Shown here one piece after another: positions 1 to 8,493 of a DNA stretch of 64,000 nucleotides. The stretch lies in the NCBI RefSeq assembly GCF_013044505.1, contig NZ_JABERD010000030.1:1-64000 (forward strand), given 5' to 3'. The stretch's first letter is position 1. Every line of letters starts with the position of its first letter. The DNA comes from Streptomyces sp. S3(2020). GTDB lineage: Bacteria > Actinomycetota > Actinomycetes > Streptomycetales > Streptomycetaceae. A program made the translations under genes and the position numbers. The notes beneath the pieces are model-generated. The model worked only from the letters and a program-made list of their open reading frames with translations. It was not told where the DNA came from and did no database searches.

Positions 1-314
1 CCATGTCGGGCGAGGGCGGGGTGGCCCAGGCGGGGTGCCGAGGGCCGATCCTCGGGCTTACGCCGCGTCGGACCGGGCAGGCCTACCCGGGAGCCGAGCC
101 AGGACGTACCGGATCGCACACCGGGGTTGGCAGGCAAGGGTCCGCTTCGGTGAGGTGCGGGAGGGAGGGCCCGCCCGGACGCCCTTGGGCCCCCGCCTCC
201 TTGGGGCCCCGTACTGTCGCGGGCCCAGCCACACCGCAGGACCGGCCGCACCCCTCTACCCCGCGCATCCAGGCCCTGGCGTGCCCCCAGACCGGCGGAG
301 CACCCCGCGTCCGC
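1..314. other. No gene recognised
   Basis: This stretch is open in several frames, but the translations are low-complexity Arg/Pro/Gly sequences typical of shadow frames in GC-rich DNA, and none resembles a known family. It lies downstream of the minus-strand acetyltransferase gene. I see no clear terminator hairpin. Confidence 0.5.
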
Positions 315-914
315 TCAGCCCCGTGGCTCGCGCCACATCGGCCACATCTGGGGGCCGGCCGGGAGGTCGAGGGCGGGGCCGATGGGCTGGAAGCCGAGGC
401 GTTCGTACAGGGCACGGCTGCGGGCGCTGCTCGCCTCCAGGTAGGCGGAGAGGCCCTCGCGGTCGCAGCGGTCGAGGACCGAGGCTATGAGCGCGGTGCC
501 CAGTCCCTGGCCCTGGCGCTCCGGTGCCACGCCGATCATCCACAGGTACTCGTGGGCGCGGCCGGCGGGGTGGATGTCCGCCGTCAGCCGGCCGATCAGC
601 TCCACGCGCTCGTTCTCCGGGTCGACCTCCGCGCGCAGCTCGGCGGGGCCGTCGGCGTCCTCCTCGGCCGCGTGCTCACCGTCCGGCACCGGAAGCCACA
701 GGGCGCAGGCCGTACCGTCCTCGGTGACGTCGACGCGCCCCTCGGCCAGCACGATGTCGGTGAAGGCGGCCATGAGCCGAGGATGGGCCGTACGACGGTG
801 CTCGTCCCCCGGGAACACCCACCGGCTGACCGGGTCGTCCTGGAACGCCGTGTCCAACAGTCCGACGACCAGCTCACGATCCTCTTCGCTCGCCGCCCGG
901 ATCGCCACACCCAT
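315..914 (-). CDS. GNAT family N-acetyltransferase
   Basis: The 199-residue protein is a GCN5-related N-acetyltransferase, which would transfer an acetyl group from acetyl-CoA to an amine that cannot be deduced. The C-terminal half carries the acetyl-CoA binding signature (GVAPERQGQGLGTAL, the Q/RxxGxG/A loop) followed by a YERLGF motif near the end, both typical of the family. The ATG is preceded by a purine-rich GGGGCGGCGGA stretch. It lies on the same strand as the polyprenyl synthase and encapsulin genes, but a 288 bp gap separates it from the former, so membership in that operon is only possible. Substrate unknown. Confidence 0.85.
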   Translation of the reverse strand: MGVAIRAASEEDRELVVGLLDTAFQDDPVSRWVFPGDEHRRTAHPRLMAAFTDIVLAEGRVDVTEDGTACALWLPVPDGEHAAEEDADGPAELRAEVDPENERVELIGRLTADIHPAGRAHEYLWMIGVAPERQGQGLGTALIASVLDRCDREGLSAYLEASSARSRALYERLGFQPIGPALDLPAGPQMWPMWREPRG

Positions 915-1202
915 GTTCCGCCGCCCCTCAAGTCAACTGACCTCGACCGTACGGTCGTTGACTCTATCGGGGACCAAGTGGCGCGTGCGCCCGGGAGAAG
1001 GGGCGGGGCCCGCACGCCGTGGGGATGTGCGGGACCCGCCTGACCGGAGCCCTTCGGGACCGTGCGGGGTCAGGAGCCGCTCGGCCCCGAGGGCTCCGGG
1101 GTCTGGGGTCTAAGGTCTGGGATCTCTGGGGTCTCTGGGGTCTGGGTCGACTGCTTCGGGCTCGCTTCCGCAGAGCAGTACGGCCTGCTGACGCGCTGAC
1201 GC
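915..1202. other. Intergenic region with GGGGTCT micro-repeats
   Basis: No coding sequence is recognised. Around 1098-1146 the plus strand carries a run of short GGTCT/TCTGGGG units at irregular 7-9 base spacing. This looks like slippage-derived simple sequence downstream of the polyprenyl synthase stop codon. Confidence 0.4.
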
Positions 1203-2279
1203 TCAACTGGTGCGCCGTGTCACGAACTCGGCCAGCGCCAGCAGTCCCCCCGCCGCCGCCGGCTCGGGCACCGCACGGGACAGTTCCCCCATCGCACGGG
1301 CCATCCGGTCGGCCGCCTGGACCTGCGCCCAGTCACGTCCACCGGCCCGCTCTACGGCGAGTGCCGTCCGGTCCAGGTCCTCCCCCGCGTACGGAGACGC
1401 GTAGAGCTCCGCCAGTTCCGCGCCCGCCGGGGTGCCGGAGGCCAGCGCGGCGACCACCGGCAGGGACTTCTTGCGGACCGCGAGGTCGGCCCCGGCCGGT
1501 TTGCCGGTGTGGCGGGGGTCGCCCCATATGCCGATCACGTCGTCGATGAGCTGGAAGGCCAGCCCGGCCTCCCGGCCGAACGCGTCCAGCGCCTCGACGT
1601 CCTCCCGCGCCGCGCCCGCGTAGAGCGCGCCCAGTGCGCAGGCGCACCCGAGCAGCGCGCCCGTCTTGGCCTCGGCCATGGCGAGCACCTCGTCGAGGGT
1701 GACCTCGTCGGGGCCCTGTGTCTCCATGGCCGTGTCCGCGTGCTGGCCGGCGCACAGCTCGACGACACAGGCCGCGAGCCGGGCGGCGGCGGTCCCGGCC
1801 GCCGGGTGCGGGTCCTCGGCGAGCAGCCCGAGGGCCAGCGCCTGGAGGGTGTCCCCGGCGAGGATCGCGTCGGCGTCGCCGAACACCGTCCATGCGGTGG
1901 GCCGGTGCCGTCGGGTGGTGTCCCGGTCCATCACGTCGTCGTGCAGCAGCGTGAAGTTGTGGACCAGCTCCACCGCCGCGGCCGCCCGCACGGCCGCCTC
2001 CCGTGCCGCCGCTCCCCCCAGTGCGGCGGCCGCGGTGAGGACGAGCGCGGGCCGTATCGCCTTGCCGGGGTGGCCCGCCGCCGGGGTGCCGTCGGCGTGC
2101 TCCCAGCCGAAGTGGTAGAGCGCGATCCGGCGCATGGAGCCGGGCAGCGAGTCGATCGCCTCGCGCAGCACGGGGTCGACCGACGCCCGGGCACGCTCCA
2201 GAATCACCGCCGCCTCATGCCCGTCGAGCGGCTCGGTCCCGGCGGGGTGCTGTGTCGCCTCCCTCATGAGCTCGTCCAT
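1203..2279 (-). CDS. Polyprenyl diphosphate synthase, probable encapsulin cargo
   Basis: The 358-residue protein is an all-alpha trans-isoprenyl diphosphate synthase. It would extend allylic diphosphates with isopentenyl diphosphate. The first Asp-rich motif is intact (LLHDDVMDRD, DDxxD). The second is DDVIGIWGD rather than the textbook DDxxD, as in many actinobacterial members. A GKAIRPALVL segment matches the conserved K-xxRP region. The start is the ATG giving MDELMREATQ. The longer open frame upstream would overlap the encapsulin gene and looks non-coding. About 45 residues precede the catalytic core, and in family 2 encapsulin systems an N-terminal extension of the cargo commonly mediates loading. 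The gene lies 113 bp downstream of the encapsulin gene on the same strand. Family 2 encapsulins are known to pair with polyprenyl transferases; encapsulation here is inferred. Chain length is unknown. Confidence 0.9.
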   Translation of the reverse strand: MDELMREATQHPAGTEPLDGHEAAVILERARASVDPVLREAIDSLPGSMRRIALYHFGWEHADGTPAAGHPGKAIRPALVLTAAAALGGAAAREAAVRAAAAVELVHNFTLLHDDVMDRDTTRRHRPTAWTVFGDADAILAGDTLQALALGLLAEDPHPAAGTAAARLAACVVELCAGQHADTAMETQGPDEVTLDEVLAMAEAKTGALLGCACALGALYAGAAREDVEALDAFGREAGLAFQLIDDVIGIWGDPRHTGKPAGADLAVRKKSLPVVAALASGTPAGAELAELYASPYAGEDLDRTALAVERAGGRDWAQVQAADRMARAMGELSRAVPEPAAAGGLLALAEFVTRRTS

Positions 2280-2392
2280 GGGGGTCTCCTCGGAGAGTCC
2301 GCGGACGGTGGCGTTTCCGCTGCGACTGGGCGCATACGACCGGGGTGTACCCGCCCGCGGGGGCGGGGACACGGTTCCCAGCTGCGGAAACG

Positions 2393-3799
2393 TCACCGCC
2401 AGCGGCCGATCTCGACGTTCTCCAGCACACCGAGCGCGTCCGGCACGAGCACCGCGGCCGAGTAGTAGGCCGTCACCAGGTACTTGATGATCGCCTGCTC
2501 GTTGATGCCCATGAAGCGCACCGACAGGCTCGGCTCGATCTCGTCCGGGATACCGGCCTGCTGCAGACCGATGACACCCTGCTCGGCCTCGCCGGTACGC
2601 ATCGCGATGATCGAGGTCGTACGGGCCTCGGTGACCGGGATCTTGTTGCACGGGTAGATCGGCACCCCCCGCCAGGTGGGGATGCGGTTGCCGCCCACGT
2701 CGATGGTCTCGGGGACGAGTCCGCGCTTGTTGAGCTCACGCCCGATCGCGGAGATGGCCCGCGGATGGGCGAGCAGGAACTTGGTGCCGCGCCGCCTGCT
2801 GAGGAGCTCGTCCAGGTCGTCGGGGCTGGGCACACCGTCGTGCGGCTGGAGCCGCTGGTCGTACTCGCAGTTGCTGAGCAGCCCGAACTCCCGGTTGTTG
2901 ACGAGCTCGTGCTCCTGGCGTTCCTTCAACGCCTCCACGGTCAGCCGAAGTTGCTGCTCGGTCTGGTTCATCGGCTGGTTGTAGAGGTCGGCCACGCGCG
3001 AGTGGATGCGCAACACGGTCTGGGCCACGCTCAGTTCGTACTCGCGCGGCCGGGCCTCGTAGTCCACGAAGGTGTGCGGGATGTCCGGCTCGCCGCTGTG
3101 GCCGGCCGCGAGGTCGATCGCCTTCTCCCCGTACCTGTTGGTGCTCTGCTCCGGGATCGAGCGCAGCGCCTGGAGGTGCTCGCGCAGGGAGTCGGTGCGC
3201 TCCGCGACCTGCTCGACGGCGTTCCGCGGCAGGACGAGCACCGTGCAGGCGGTGACCGCGCGTGCGGTGTACTCCCAGATGGCCTCGGGGTCGAGCAGCG
3301 CCTGGTCGCCGAAGTAGGCGCCGTCGGCGAGGACTCCGAGGACGGCGTCGTCGCCGTAGGGGCCCGTGCCGATCGTCTCCACCCTGCCGTGCGCCAGCAG
3401 GAAGACCACGTCGGCCTGGCTGCCGAACGAGGCGATCACGTCCCCCGCCGCGAATTCACGCTGCTCACAGCGGCGGGCGAGTTCGGTGAGCACCTCCTCG
3501 TCCTCGTACGACCGCAACGCCGGCAGTTCGCACAGCTCCTCCGGGATGACCTCGACCCGGTCGCCCGTCTTCACAAAAGTGACCCGGCCGTCCCCCACGG
3601 CGTAGGTCAGCCGCCGGTTCACGCGGTACGTACCGCCTTGAACATTCACCCAGGGCAGCATGCGCAGCAGCCAACGGGAGCTGATCTCCTGCATCTGGGG
3701 TGCGGACTTGGTGGTGGTGGCCAGGTTCCGCGCGGCCGCCGTGCCGAGACTCTGCTGCGGCCGGCCCTGCTCGGTGCGGACCTCTTCGCCTACCGACAT
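2393..3799 (-). CDS. Family 2B encapsulin shell protein with cNMP-binding domain (EshA-like)
   Basis: The 468-residue protein matches the EshA/SrpI group, now classed as family 2B encapsulins: HK97-fold shell proteins that self-assemble into protein nanocompartments. Residues 1-80 form the N-terminal arm and start of the HK97 fold. Roughly residues 90-215 are an inserted cyclic-nucleotide-binding-like domain ([17 protein letters not shown], then YFGDQALL). Residues 240-468 complete the capsid fold ([14 protein letters not shown] and the [20 protein letters not shown] region). The chosen ATG at 3799 follows a GGGAGG ribosome site; a longer frame upstream is unsupported. EshA of S. griseus forms large multimers and affects sporulating hyphae and ppGpp/antibiotic phenotypes. 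The next gene is the probable cargo enzyme. The Arg that normally contacts the cNMP phosphate appears to be Tyr177, so ligand binding is doubtful. Confidence 0.93.
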
Positions 3800-4083
3800 A
3801 TGAGAATTGCCCTCCCGGTCATGCCCCGGCGCCGGTCTGCACCGAGGCATCGAACTGCGGACCAGCCTTCCATCACGGAGCGTGCCGGTGCTATTACACG
3901 AAAGAGTTGGAATGGATCTTCGATAACTGGGCAATACCGAGATCTCGCACACCGTTCCCGGCCCGTTGTCCGAAACGGCTCGCACACCGTACGAACCAGG
4001 TAGTCCCGGTTGTCGGCCTCCGGTACAAGCAGCGGTACGAGCCGATCGCGAAAGGCGGTCGCCGCGCACGCGAAGGAGGCGGC
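3800..4083. promoter_or_regulatory. Divergent promoter region between encapsulin and amidase genes
   Basis: This 284 bp region separates two divergent genes and is clearly richer in A+T than its flanks around 3890-3950. It must hold promoters in both directions. I cannot assign confident -35/-10 elements. A GAAGGAGGCGG ribosome site sits just before the amidase ATG. Confidence 0.4.
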
Positions 4084-4674
4084 ATGGCCCCACCCATGTC
4101 CGCGAGCAGGTTCCTCGACGTACTCCAGGACGAGGGCGTCACCGTCGTCCAGGTCGGCGACTGGAGGCATCACAACCGCAACCACAAGGGCCCTTGGGGC
4201 CCGGTGCACGGCGTGATGATCCACCACACGGTGACCAAGGGCAGCGAACGCACCGTCGAACTCTGCCGCGACGGCTACGAGGACCTCCCCGGCCCGCTCT
4301 GCCACGGTGTGATCACCAAGGACGGCCGCGTCCACCTCGTCGGCTACGGCCGCGCCAACCACGCGGGGCTCGGCGACGACGACGTCCTGCGCGCGGTGAT
4401 CGCCGAGAAGGCCCTCCCGCCGGACAACGAGGCGAACACCGACGGCAACCGCCACTTCTACGGCTTCGAGTGCGAGAACCTCGGCGACGGCGAGGACCCG
4501 TGGCCGGCGGCCCAGCTGGACGCGATCGAGCGGGTCGCCGCCGCGATCTGCCGCCACCACGGCTGGACGGAACGGTCGGTCATCGGCCATCTGGAGTGGC
4601 AGCCCGGGAAGGTCGACCCGCGCGGCTTCACGATGGCATCGATGCGGAAACGGATCAGGGACCGTCTGACGTAA
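4084..4674 (+). CDS. N-acetylmuramoyl-L-alanine amidase / PGRP-type (Amidase_2)
   Basis: The 196-residue protein is an amidase_2/peptidoglycan-recognition-type domain that hydrolyses the bond between N-acetylmuramic acid and L-alanine in peptidoglycan. The zinc-site sequence VMIHHT lies at residues 44-49. Further matching elements are a central [13 protein letters not shown] segment, the YGFECEN strand, and a C-terminal [14 protein letters not shown] with the second conserved His and the Lys/Asp typical of T7-lysozyme-like enzymes. There is no signal peptide, so the route to the wall is unclear; the protein may be cytoplasmic, secreted by another route, or phage-derived. The start is fixed by a strong GAAGGAGG site. 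The next gene begins about 45 bp downstream. Confidence 0.88.
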
Positions 4675-5622: not shown

Positions 5623-8493
5623 TTATCGAGACTTCTTGCGGAAGCCGCGTTTCGTTGCCTTCTTGCCGGTCAGTTTCTGCGCTTGGCGGTGCATTCCCAT
5701 CCGCCGGTAGACCGTGACCAGGGCGCGAACAGTGAGCTTGGTGTCCTTGTGGTCAGGCCCGAGGATCCGGCGCCGCGCGGCCAGCACCGCCTCGAGCAAT
5801 ACGACCGCTTCCCGGGACATACGCATCTCATGCAGGATGAGAGCAAGGTTGTAGCTGGTACGGAGTGTTTCCGGATGCTCCTCCCCGAATGCGCGACGTC
5901 GCCGGTCGAACGCCTCCTCCAGCACACGGCGAGCTTCCCCGAATTCGCGCAGCGCACCAAGAGAGATCGCGAGTTGGTTCATCGTCAGCAGGGTTTCGCC
6001 ATGATCCGGCCCTAGGATCCGGCGCTCCGTGGCCAGGCTGTCCACGAGCAGACCGCGGGCCGCCTCGACCTCGCGCAGGTCGTGCAGGACGCAGGCGTGG
6101 ACATACGCCGTCCTCATCGTGTCGGGATGGTCGTCGCCGTGAACACGACGACTCCGTGCGAACGCGTCCTCGACGATGCTCCTGGCCTCGTGACATCTGC
6201 CCATGTCCTTGAGCGCGTCACTGAGAGTCCGTGCTGCCGAGATGGTCAAAGGGTGGTCGTCCCCAAGAGTGGTCCGGCAACGTTCCCATGTCTCCTGGAC
6301 CAGGCGGTGCGCGGCGCTCACCTCATCCACCTGCAAGAGGGAGGCCCCGAGCTGGAGGGCCGATCGGAGGGTTTCGGGGTGGTCGTCCCCGCGCAGGCGA
6401 CGCCACCCGGCCAGCACGTCCTCCTCCAGTTCACGTGCCGCTACCAGGTCTCCCGCCGCGTGGAGGGACCCGGCAAAGTTGCAGGCCGACTGGAGAGTAT
6501 CGGCGTGGTCGTCGCCCAGCCGGCAGCGTCGACGGGCAAGGGTGTCCCGGTCCATGTCCATCGCCGCCCGGTACTCGCCGTGTTGAAAGAGGATCGCGGC
6601 GAGGTCGTTTGCGGACTGCAGCGTGTCGGGATGATCATCACCCAGTGTCCGGCGGCGACGGGTGTAGGCGTCCTCGATGATCGGCCGGGCAGCCTGGCTG
6701 TCACCCAGATCCGACGTCGCGTGACCGAGGTACTGCGTGCAGGTCAGCACATCAGGATGGTCCGCACCGAGCTGGGCGGTCCATGTCTCGCGCAAGCCGG
6801 CGGCGAGTTCGGCTGCGGCCCTCGGCCGGGCGCTACGGATCAGGAAATACACCGCGTCACTCAGTGTCGGGCGGAGCTCCGCTCTGTCGACCACGTCGAT
6901 GTGCTGCGAGACGAGATGCGAGGCCAGGCTCGCCCAGGCCGGCCAGTCGGTCGGCGTCTGCGGATCTCCCGGGTCGGCGGAAGCCAGAACGGCCGCCACG
7001 TCGTCGTGGATCGCCTCGATCCGCACCGGGTCGACCTGGTCTCTGAGGACGGCCTGCGTGAGGCGGTGGACCTGAAAAGTCCGGCCGTCGACACGGACGA
7101 GGCTGTAGCGGCGCAGAGGTTCGAGAGTGGACCTCATCCACGTCAGCTCGTCCAGGTGGGCCGGGACCGTGGACAACCCGGTGCGGGCGTTCACCATCCA
7201 GTCGATGGGGATCGGATCTGGACCGAGGAACGCGGTGAGCCGGAGCAGGGCCGCGGCGTCGGGGTGCTCGTCCGCGAGGTCCCCCGCCGCGATACCCACC
7301 GCGGCCGCCAGCGGCACCGGATAGTCCGGGTCCTCCCCCTCCCGCAGGATCCTCGTGTTCTCGCGCAGAAGCCTCAGATAGAGCCCGGCATGCGTGCCCT
7401 TCTCGATCATGTCCGCGGCCTGGGCCAACGCCAGCGGAAGATCACCGAGTTCACCGGCCAGCGCGTCGGCCTCGGCCCCGGTCACACTCGGGACACGGTT
7501 GTCGAAGTACGCCAATGAGTCCGCCCGCGTGAACACGTCCAGGGCCATCAGCCTTGCGAGCCGGCGCCAGTTGGGGTTGCGGGACGTGATCAGGACGTGC
7601 CCAGGGCCCTCCGGCAGCCAGCGTTCGACCTGTTCGGGGTCCTCCGCGTTGTCGAGGATGATCAGCCACCGCCGCCGGTCGCGCAGTGACGTCAGCAGCG
7701 TACGGGCGTTGTGCTCGGCGCCCGCCTCCTTCACCGCGACGCCCAGCCGGTCGGCCAGTTCCGTGTAGTGGACGGGGATCTGGTCGGACTGTTCCGCGTC
7801 GATCCACCACACCAGGTCGTACGCGTCGGCGAACCGGTACGCGTACTCCAGGGCGATCTGGGACTTGCCGATACCGCCCATCCCGTGCATGGCGATGACG
7901 GAGTGCCGGTCGGCGGGCAGAGCGTCGCGGAGTTCGGCGAGCTGGGCCGCACGGCCGGAGAAGTCGAGGTTGCGGCGGCGGCTCAGCTTCCGCACCCCGG
8001 GCTCGCCGGTACCGCCGGGCAGCGGCGGCCTCGGGCCATGCGGTACGACCGGCTCCTCAACCGTGTTTCCCGGGAACGCAGGACGTTCCGTAGGCCGCCG
8101 GTTCCCGTTCACCGCCGTCCGCAGCGCCTCGACCGCGGCCTTCTCGTCCAGCCCGTGGAGGTTCTTGCGGATCTTCGCGTCGAGCACGGCGGGTACGTCC
8201 ACGCCGACGAGCGGCTCCACGGCCAGGGGTATCAGCCGGTCCCGCCGGGCGACCACGGCCGACCACTCCTCCTGCGTCCAGCGCCCCCGCTCGAAGTACG
8301 ACGTGGAGAACAGCGCGACGACCGCGTCCGCCCGCCGCAGCCCCTCGTCCATGCGCTGGACGAAGTCGTCCCCGGTGTCCCAGTCCCACACGTCGAGGAC
8401 CGTCGCGTGGCCGCTCTCCTCGAGGTGCCACGCCACCCACTCGGCCCACGGCCGGTCCGCTCCCGCGTAACTGATGAAGTAGGTGTCGGCCAC
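5623..8493 (-). CDS. TIR - NB-ARC - TPR protein (NLR-like STAND ATPase)
   Basis: The 956-residue cytosolic protein has three parts. Residues 1-125 form a TIR domain beginning TYFISYAGADRPWAEW. A Glu pair in GRWTQEEW (residues 70-77) sits where catalytic TIR NADases carry their Glu. Residues 175-560 are an NB-ARC/STAND ATPase with P-loop GMGGIGKS (204-211), Walker B LIILDN (277-282) and an LITSR sensor (301-305). Residues from about 590 to 940 are around eight kinesin-light-chain-like TPRs, each with an LGDDHPDTL-type motif at roughly 42-residue spacing. The architecture resembles bacterial NLR-like defence proteins and TPR proteins of FxSxx-COOH peptide systems. No radical SAM or short peptide gene is visible beside it, so defence is the simpler idea, but it is inference. 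No partner gene is evident. Confidence 0.9.
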   Translation of the reverse strand: MADTYFISYAGADRPWAEWVAWHLEESGHATVLDVWDWDTGDDFVQRMDEGLRRADAVVALFSTSYFERGRWTQEEWSAVVARRDRLIPLAVEPLVGVDVPAVLDAKIRKNLHGLDEKAAVEALRTAVNGNRRPTERPAFPGNTVEEPVVPHGPRPPLPGGTGEPGVRKLSRRRNLDFSGRAAQLAELRDALPADRHSVIAMHGMGGIGKSQIALEYAYRFADAYDLVWWIDAEQSDQIPVHYTELADRLGVAVKEAGAEHNARTLLTSLRDRRRWLIILDNAEDPEQVERWLPEGPGHVLITSRNPNWRRLARLMALDVFTRADSLAYFDNRVPSVTGAEADALAGELGDLPLALAQAADMIEKGTHAGLYLRLLRENTRILREGEDPDYPVPLAAAVGIAAGDLADEHPDAAALLRLTAFLGPDPIPIDWMVNARTGLSTVPAHLDELTWMRSTLEPLRRYSLVRVDGRTFQVHRLTQAVLRDQVDPVRIEAIHDDVAAVLASADPGDPQTPTDWPAWASLASHLVSQHIDVVDRAELRPTLSDAVYFLIRSARPRAAAELAAGLRETWTAQLGADHPDVLTCTQYLGHATSDLGDSQAARPIIEDAYTRRRRTLGDDHPDTLQSANDLAAILFQHGEYRAAMDMDRDTLARRRCRLGDDHADTLQSACNFAGSLHAAGDLVAARELEEDVLAGWRRLRGDDHPETLRSALQLGASLLQVDEVSAAHRLVQETWERCRTTLGDDHPLTISAARTLSDALKDMGRCHEARSIVEDAFARSRRVHGDDHPDTMRTAYVHACVLHDLREVEAARGLLVDSLATERRILGPDHGETLLTMNQLAISLGALREFGEARRVLEEAFDRRRRAFGEEHPETLRTSYNLALILHEMRMSREAVVLLEAVLAARRRILGPDHKDTKLTVRALVTVYRRMGMHRQAQKLTGKKATKRGFRKKSR

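Follow-up and report, generated by a model that had tools for sequence, protein, structure and literature searches.

Does a bacterial protein shell whose gene stands directly before that of a prenyl-chain enzyme enclose this enzyme, and what else belongs to such a compartment? The question is raised by the first 64,000 nucleotides of contig NZ_JABERD010000030.1 (C30; assembly GCF_013044505.1) of Streptomyces sp. S3(2020), a stretch that is called the window here. The window starts at the end of the contig, where the minus strand carries, in this order, an encapsulin shell gene, a polyprenyl diphosphate synthase gene and a GNAT acetyltransferase gene, beyond which no sequence is visible. All three were found at the places, on the strand and in the order that an initial annotation, made from the sequence alone, had given for them. 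Judged by sequence comparison, it is fairly probable that this is an EshB-type family 2B encapsulin locus with the synthase as its cargo. The curated protein models that are passed, the conserved linkage of the two genes and the catalytic motifs, kept in all 90 synthases compared, count in favor of this reading. The features concerned are as follows.

2393..3799, minus strand: family 2B encapsulin shell protein, EshB type, 468 amino acids (NF041163, PF19307 and PF00027, 9bhu)
3197..3460, minus strand: cyclic nucleotide monophosphate (cNMP)-binding-like domain inserted in the shell protein, residues 114-201 (PF00027), with Trp175-Glu176-Tyr177 at the expected place of the phosphate-contacting Arg
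2402..3154, minus strand: HK97-type shell domain, C-terminal part, residues 216-466 (PF19307)
1203..2279, minus strand: polyprenyl (possibly geranylgeranyl) diphosphate synthase, 358 amino acids, likely cargo (NF041169; both motifs)
1926..1940, minus strand: first aspartate-rich motif, DDVMD, synthase residues 114-118 (sequence)
1530..1544, minus strand: second aspartate-rich motif, DDVIG, synthase residues 246-250 (sequence)
2394..2396, minus strand: possible earlier synthase start, an in-frame GTG that shares GTGA with the stop codon of the shell gene and would add 39 residues (sequence)
315..914, minus strand: GNAT acetyltransferase, optional third gene (PF00583)

The shell protein scored 772.3 bits (cut-off 400) against NF041163, the model named "family 2B encapsulin nanocompartment shell protein", and matched PF19307 (SrpI-like) with 450.7 bits at residues 216-466 and PF00027 (cNMP_binding) with 63.6 bits at residues 114-201, in agreement with its earlier assignment as a family 2B capsid with a cNMP-like domain. 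Both the HK97-type encapsulin domain related to SrpI (PF19307, 9bhu) and the inserted domain of family 2B (PF00027, NF041163) are thus present. Three solved family 2B shells align with it nearly end to end (620-652 bits), and its best solved relative is 9bhu (651 bits over residues 6-467). The N-terminal arm of the shell, SLGT(A/S)AARNLA, is near-invariant; it lies at 3728-3751 in the window (shell residues 17-24). Of 117 shells, 99 have its strict form, LGT[SAD]A[AG]R, and 113 a loose one.

The initial annotation had described the inserted domain as a sensor. The Arg of the phosphate-binding cassette of cNMP domains is missing from it, and a Trp occupies this place in all 90 synthase-linked shells and in the three solved 2B shells. 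In an ungapped comparison, this Trp is paired with a residue that we take to be Arg82 of CRP, and in a HMMER alignment to cGMP kinases, the kinase Arg stands opposite a gap in the shell, so that again no Arg is found there. The invariant Trp fits the published report that the domain of family 2B retains the cNMP fold without cyclic nucleotide binding and sits over the two-fold pores (PMC12407261; this and the other papers cited by PMC number are drawn on for the accessible part of their text). The idea of a cNMP sensor is thereby weakened and is best dropped; a pore-covering domain with a ligand other than a cyclic nucleotide is the better reading.

The product of the second gene scored 485.3 bits (cut-off 450) against NF041169, "family 2 encapsulin nanocompartment cargo protein polyprenyl transferase", and 196 bits against PF00348. 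With DDVMD and DDVIG, it is the same-strand isoprenyl diphosphate synthase with two metal motifs that had been announced behind the shell gene, and the first motif (DDxxD) and the DD pair of the second, as in trans-prenyl diphosphate synthases, are kept in 90 of the 90 synthases. The context of the first aspartate-rich motif (FARM), HNFTLLHDDVMD, has an aromatic residue five positions before the first Asp and no insertion. By the usual rule for chain length, this combination leads to geranylgeranyl diphosphate (GGPP). Against NF045549 (IdsB, geranylgeranyl diphosphate synthase), the protein reached 363 bits, below the cut-off of 475, and because of this a C20 product remains a prediction, which the HNFTLLHDDVMD context and the IdsB score together suggest. 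The surroundings of the 90 loci were viewed to about 1.6 kb before the shell and 3 kb past the synthase, and the nine families that are most frequent there, besides the five of the window itself, were checked by Pfam: RibD-like, Rrf2, DUF6304, TetR, flavohaemoglobin-like, M7 peptidase, YCII, glyoxalase-like and DUF952. They include no enzyme that consumes terpenes. Since no terpene-consuming enzyme recurs nearby, the product is probably used by enzymes encoded elsewhere.

The N-terminal extension of the synthase comprises about 20 residues from the likelier start and about 60 from the in-frame GTG that overlaps the shell stop codon, by which the protein could begin 39 codons earlier, and it varies across the 90 loci. 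A long N-terminus from a GTGA overlap was considered as a general rule and was rejected, the spacer frames being distributed 37:30:23 over the 90 loci and not fixed. Five loci (L050, L051, L052, L054 and L060) have no in-frame ATG, GTG or TTG past the shell stop codon, and the overlapping start is thus the natural choice there. At L060, L067 and L069, a possible synthase start in the right frame shares the sequence ATGA with the shell stop codon, which suggests translational coupling in some species.

Conservation of the gene neighborhood had been named beforehand as the test on which the proposal of a common compartment could fail, and this test was run. The shell sample consists of 99 matches of at least 700 bits (67-100% identity) from 96 of 121 Streptomyces genomes, the one under study included; weaker matches, of which some also reach 67-68% identity, are not included, and at most 13 candidates were scored per genome. 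A synthase match lies 30-442 bp downstream on the same strand in 90 of the 99, the spacings being those between matches and not between start codons. In the reverse direction, the best 80 of at least 585 synthase relatives from named genomes all follow a shell gene on the same strand, at 702 and 857 bp in two cases and within 700 bp in the other 78. The pair thus held together with few exceptions. Three shell matches are second copies, in G114 close to the end of a contig and in G052 and G053 within 2-methylisoborneol loci, and three Streptomyces synthase matches have no adjoining shell (G076, G112 and a partial match in G102). In 197 genomes of the class, 23 have a synthase over the NF041169 cut-off, and in 18 of these it lies beside a family 2B shell; the 18 include G188, G234 and G302, outside the genus, which have loci with two shells and an adjoining synthase.

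The linkage was also followed from the flank. Of the 90 pairs, at least 66 have a divergent amidase gene no farther than 6 kb away (selected by eye and then measured; the 48 inside fetched segments were recovered by script), a lower bound, as no amidase was listed near the remaining 24. The 25 genomes that lack an orthologous shell contributed 14 further amidase sites, and G043 and G051, whose shells lie elsewhere, two more; ten of these 16 retained a second flank gene. The other 11 shell-less genomes comprise G076, with its synthase-only site, and ten that were unplaced. Of 79 amidase-flanked sites in all, 66 contain both genes, ten neither, two the shell only and one the synthase only, where sites with neither gene had to show the amidase and the second flank gene, and sites with both the amidase only. 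The odds ratio for joint presence is 330, a descriptive figure that treats the genomes as independent. Because these counts and the scans in both directions show joint presence and absence, the shell and synthase genes tend to come and go as one unit. In one clade (L103, L106 and similar loci), the shell gene is preceded by extra genes, for an Rrf2 regulator and a flavohaemoglobin-like protein, in keeping with the wider gaps of about 2 kb between amidase and shell.

The alternative that survives best is that the synthase is a cytosolic operon partner and the shell encloses something else, or takes up and holds the lipid product. We consider this unlikely on the whole, and several observations speak for it and weigh against an enclosed synthase. 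No shared N-terminal motif was found on comparison of the 90 synthases, and the GPxGLGT(SAAR) motif of terpene cyclases is present in none of the 90. The stretch before the first helix ranges from about 10 to over 100 residues according to the start chosen and differs between genomes, and the synthase N-terminus is very short in many loci. Each gene also occurs without its partner: G076 has a full-length synthase frame (349 amino acids, L043 3510-4556) between the usual flanks and no shell, G006 has a shell without a synthase, and G101 retains, between a full-length shell frame and the GNAT gene, a synthase remnant of 112 residues (L035 3727-4062) in which the gene ends are kept and the middle is gone. 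In G112, the shell gene is followed by a different gene, and the synthase gene is the first on another contig. Finally, five of the 23 over-cut-off genomes of the class (G136, G138, G203, G214 and G254) show no adjoining shell, so that passing the cargo model NF041169 is no proof of cargo status; in G214, the contig edge ends in what reads like the 3' end of a shell gene. However, one-gene sites make up just three of the 79 amidase-flanked sites, and synthase-less shells of this or a near type adjoin another known cargo-class enzyme in five genomes. A two-domain terpene cyclase lies beside the shell in G043 (over the NF041168 cut-off) and in G051 (below it), a broken cyclase gene, also below it, lies on the opposite strand beside the shell in G010, the shell-adjoining cyclase of G052 is over the NF041167 cut-off, and that of G053 is 80% identical to it.

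If the synthase is indeed cargo, the manner of its loading has to be considered. For the polyprenyl transferases, the accessible text of PMC8346489 gives no targeting motif, and it proposes a GPxGLGT-type motif for the terpene cyclases. This pattern was recognized in ten of 12 cyclase frames beside family 2B shells, being missing in L038 (a broken gene) and L161, and on the sequences compared here the loading of the synthase is not explained by it. The cyclase motif GLGTSAAR resembles the shell arm SLGT(A/S)AARNLA; the full LGTSAAR is present in three of the 12 cyclases (L040, L162 and L172) and the GPxG/GLGT core in ten, and cyclase cargo may thus mimic the shell's own N-terminal arm. A literature search on the cyclase motif and encapsulins returned PMC8346489 alone, in whose accessible text the resemblance to the arm was not found; the resemblance may already be in print.

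We tentatively suggest, as a possibility well short of probable, that there are two docking modes, in which cyclases copy the shell arm and the synthase of EshB-type shells uses another surface, and that the change from synthase to cyclase occurred more than once. A tree was made of 73 shells, 46 from the set of 90 with a linked synthase and 27 from outside this set. Its synthase-linked clade (support 100/99) also holds the shells of G051 and G010, which are linked to cyclases, and those of G052 and G053, which belong to 2-methylisoborneol loci, the row of G010 being long and its placement unsure. The shells of G051 and G010 lie away from the usual site and thus seem to be relocated or acquired copies, not swaps in place.

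Several other candidates were tried and rejected. Recurring synthase starts ("MAEFMTET" in the nearer clade and "MTSTDAATEGHEAA" in the other) have no common core. GTAAAR, at residues 162-167 of the window's synthase, could pass for a copy of the shell arm, and it occurs in only one of the 90 and is taken as chance. GPxG alone is present in ten of the 90 synthase frames, the rest of the motif being missing. As to the shell, a faster change after a change of partner is not indicated, since the end branches of G051 and G010 (0.32 and 0.41; median 0.083) are matched by other thinly sampled shells (0.33 to 0.55), and the luminal loop (motif 2 in the accessible text of PMC12407261) varies among synthase-linked shells and gives no clean split from the cyclase-linked ones, so it was not retained as a cargo-specific site.

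The initial annotation had also offered the GNAT (52 bits against PF00583) as a possible third component. It is very unlikely that this protein is enclosed or modifies the shell or its enzyme. Its gene stands behind the synthase in 60 of the 90 pairs and in none of the ten emptied sites (Fisher 4.9e-5, not corrected for relatedness), and acetyltransferases are among the genes enriched in polyprenyl-transferase operons (PMC8346489, accessible text). However, it is missing beside 30 of the 90 pairs and in 34 of the best 80 of the at least 585 segments from named genomes (three of the 34 being cut right behind the synthase), it occurs without the pair, at 51-59% identity, in G008, G060 and G073, and S. 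coelicolor SCO5251 has a computed OsdR box of its own (PMC5069765, accessible text). The GNAT gene is thus an optional accessory at best.

That the adjacency is plain synteny of a conserved stretch of the Streptomyces chromosome, without functional meaning, is the least credible explanation, for although upstream neighbors are common too (besides the amidase near the 66 or more pairs, an amidase in 57 and a pyridoxal phosphate enzyme in 73 of the best 80 of the at least 585 synthase segments), the linkage of shell and synthase is tighter than that of the flanks, and ten genomes lack both genes at a site that is otherwise kept.

The pairing itself is a system catalogued since 2021 and not new. 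Family 2b shell genes most often adjoin a polyprenyl diphosphate synthase gene (PMC8049743, 2021), and 900 operons of a family 2B shell with a polyprenyl transferase were counted (PMC8346489, 2021), each according to the accessible text. The remark in the initial annotation that such a compartment is scarcely characterized is thus right for experiments and not for the pairing; a targeted literature search, with most subscription journals outside its reach, found no published demonstration of a polyprenyl synthase inside a shell. The locus resembles the operons of PMC8346489 in the shell family and the neighbor, and both of its proteins pass the NCBIfam models for the system. It differs from them, as far as the accessible text describes them, in having no terpene cyclase, a single shell gene and an N-terminal extension of about 20 residues from the likelier start, whereas a disordered N-terminal domain of 50-100 residues is given there for the polyprenyl transferase cargo.

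In S. coelicolor, SCO5249 is eshB (PMC3878966), SCO5250 is listed with genes of the methylerythritol phosphate/deoxyxylulose phosphate (MEP/DOXP) pathway of changed expression (PMC7494193) and SCO5251 is called an N-acetyltransferase (PMC5069765), all in the accessible texts; by their names and consecutive numbers, and not by sequence, these appear to match the three-gene order of the window. The order shell, synthase and GNAT is also that of S. coelicoflavus. EshA, the 2-methylisoborneol encapsulin, has the same shell family and a different cargo class, and a shell of this type, 63% identical to the window's, exists in the same genome on C25 (L044) with a cyclase matching NF041167 and a geranyl diphosphate methyltransferase; the cyclase frame has a GPxGLGT-type motif, unlike the window's synthase. 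A family 2A shell is encoded on C14 (L045), together with a cysteine desulfurase that matches the cargo1 model, so that three encapsulin systems are found in one strain. The two-component shell of Streptomyces lydicus (accessible text of PMC12407261) shares the shell family and the inserted domain; it consists of two co-assembling proteins, whereas the window has a single shell gene.

On the reading that the EshB-type shell encloses the synthase, the following mechanism may be proposed. The particle formed by the shell protein would have T=1 architecture and a size of about 28 nm, like that of a family 2B relative, with the synthase inside. Isopentenyl diphosphate and an allylic primer would enter via the two-fold pores, the outer cNMP-like domains over these pores modulating the traffic in response to a ligand other than a cyclic nucleotide, and the synthase would make from them a short prenyl diphosphate, perhaps GGPP (C20), for consumption by enzymes encoded elsewhere. 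The GNAT would be an optional partner in the cytosol.

One further feature was recognized before the start of the shell gene.

3861..3915, minus strand: conserved element at about -112 to -62 from the ATG (alignment of 90 upstream regions)

The minus strand of this stretch holds TTCCAACTCTTTCGTGTAATAGCAC and then, nearer the shell gene, GATGGAAGGCTGG in the comparison of the 90 loci, and it is likely to be a regulatory site, a putative assignment. In a simple scan of positions 1-4200, no sigma-70-like promoter was recognized, and the single terminator-like site lies within the shell gene on the plus strand and is not above chance. Farther along, positions 5623-8493 encode a TIR - NB-ARC - TPR protein of 956 amino acids, which matches the NCBIfam FxSxx-COOH system TPR protein (655 bits).

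In short, the locus is a widespread and clean case for the question of why bacteria wrap a prenyl-chain enzyme in a protein shell, and the natural variants (shell without synthase, synthase without shell and shell with cyclase) can serve as controls. Should the synthase be enclosed although it lacks the cyclase motif, the loading rule of family 2B must widen, and if the two docking modes exist, one shell fold would take up enzymes by different routes.

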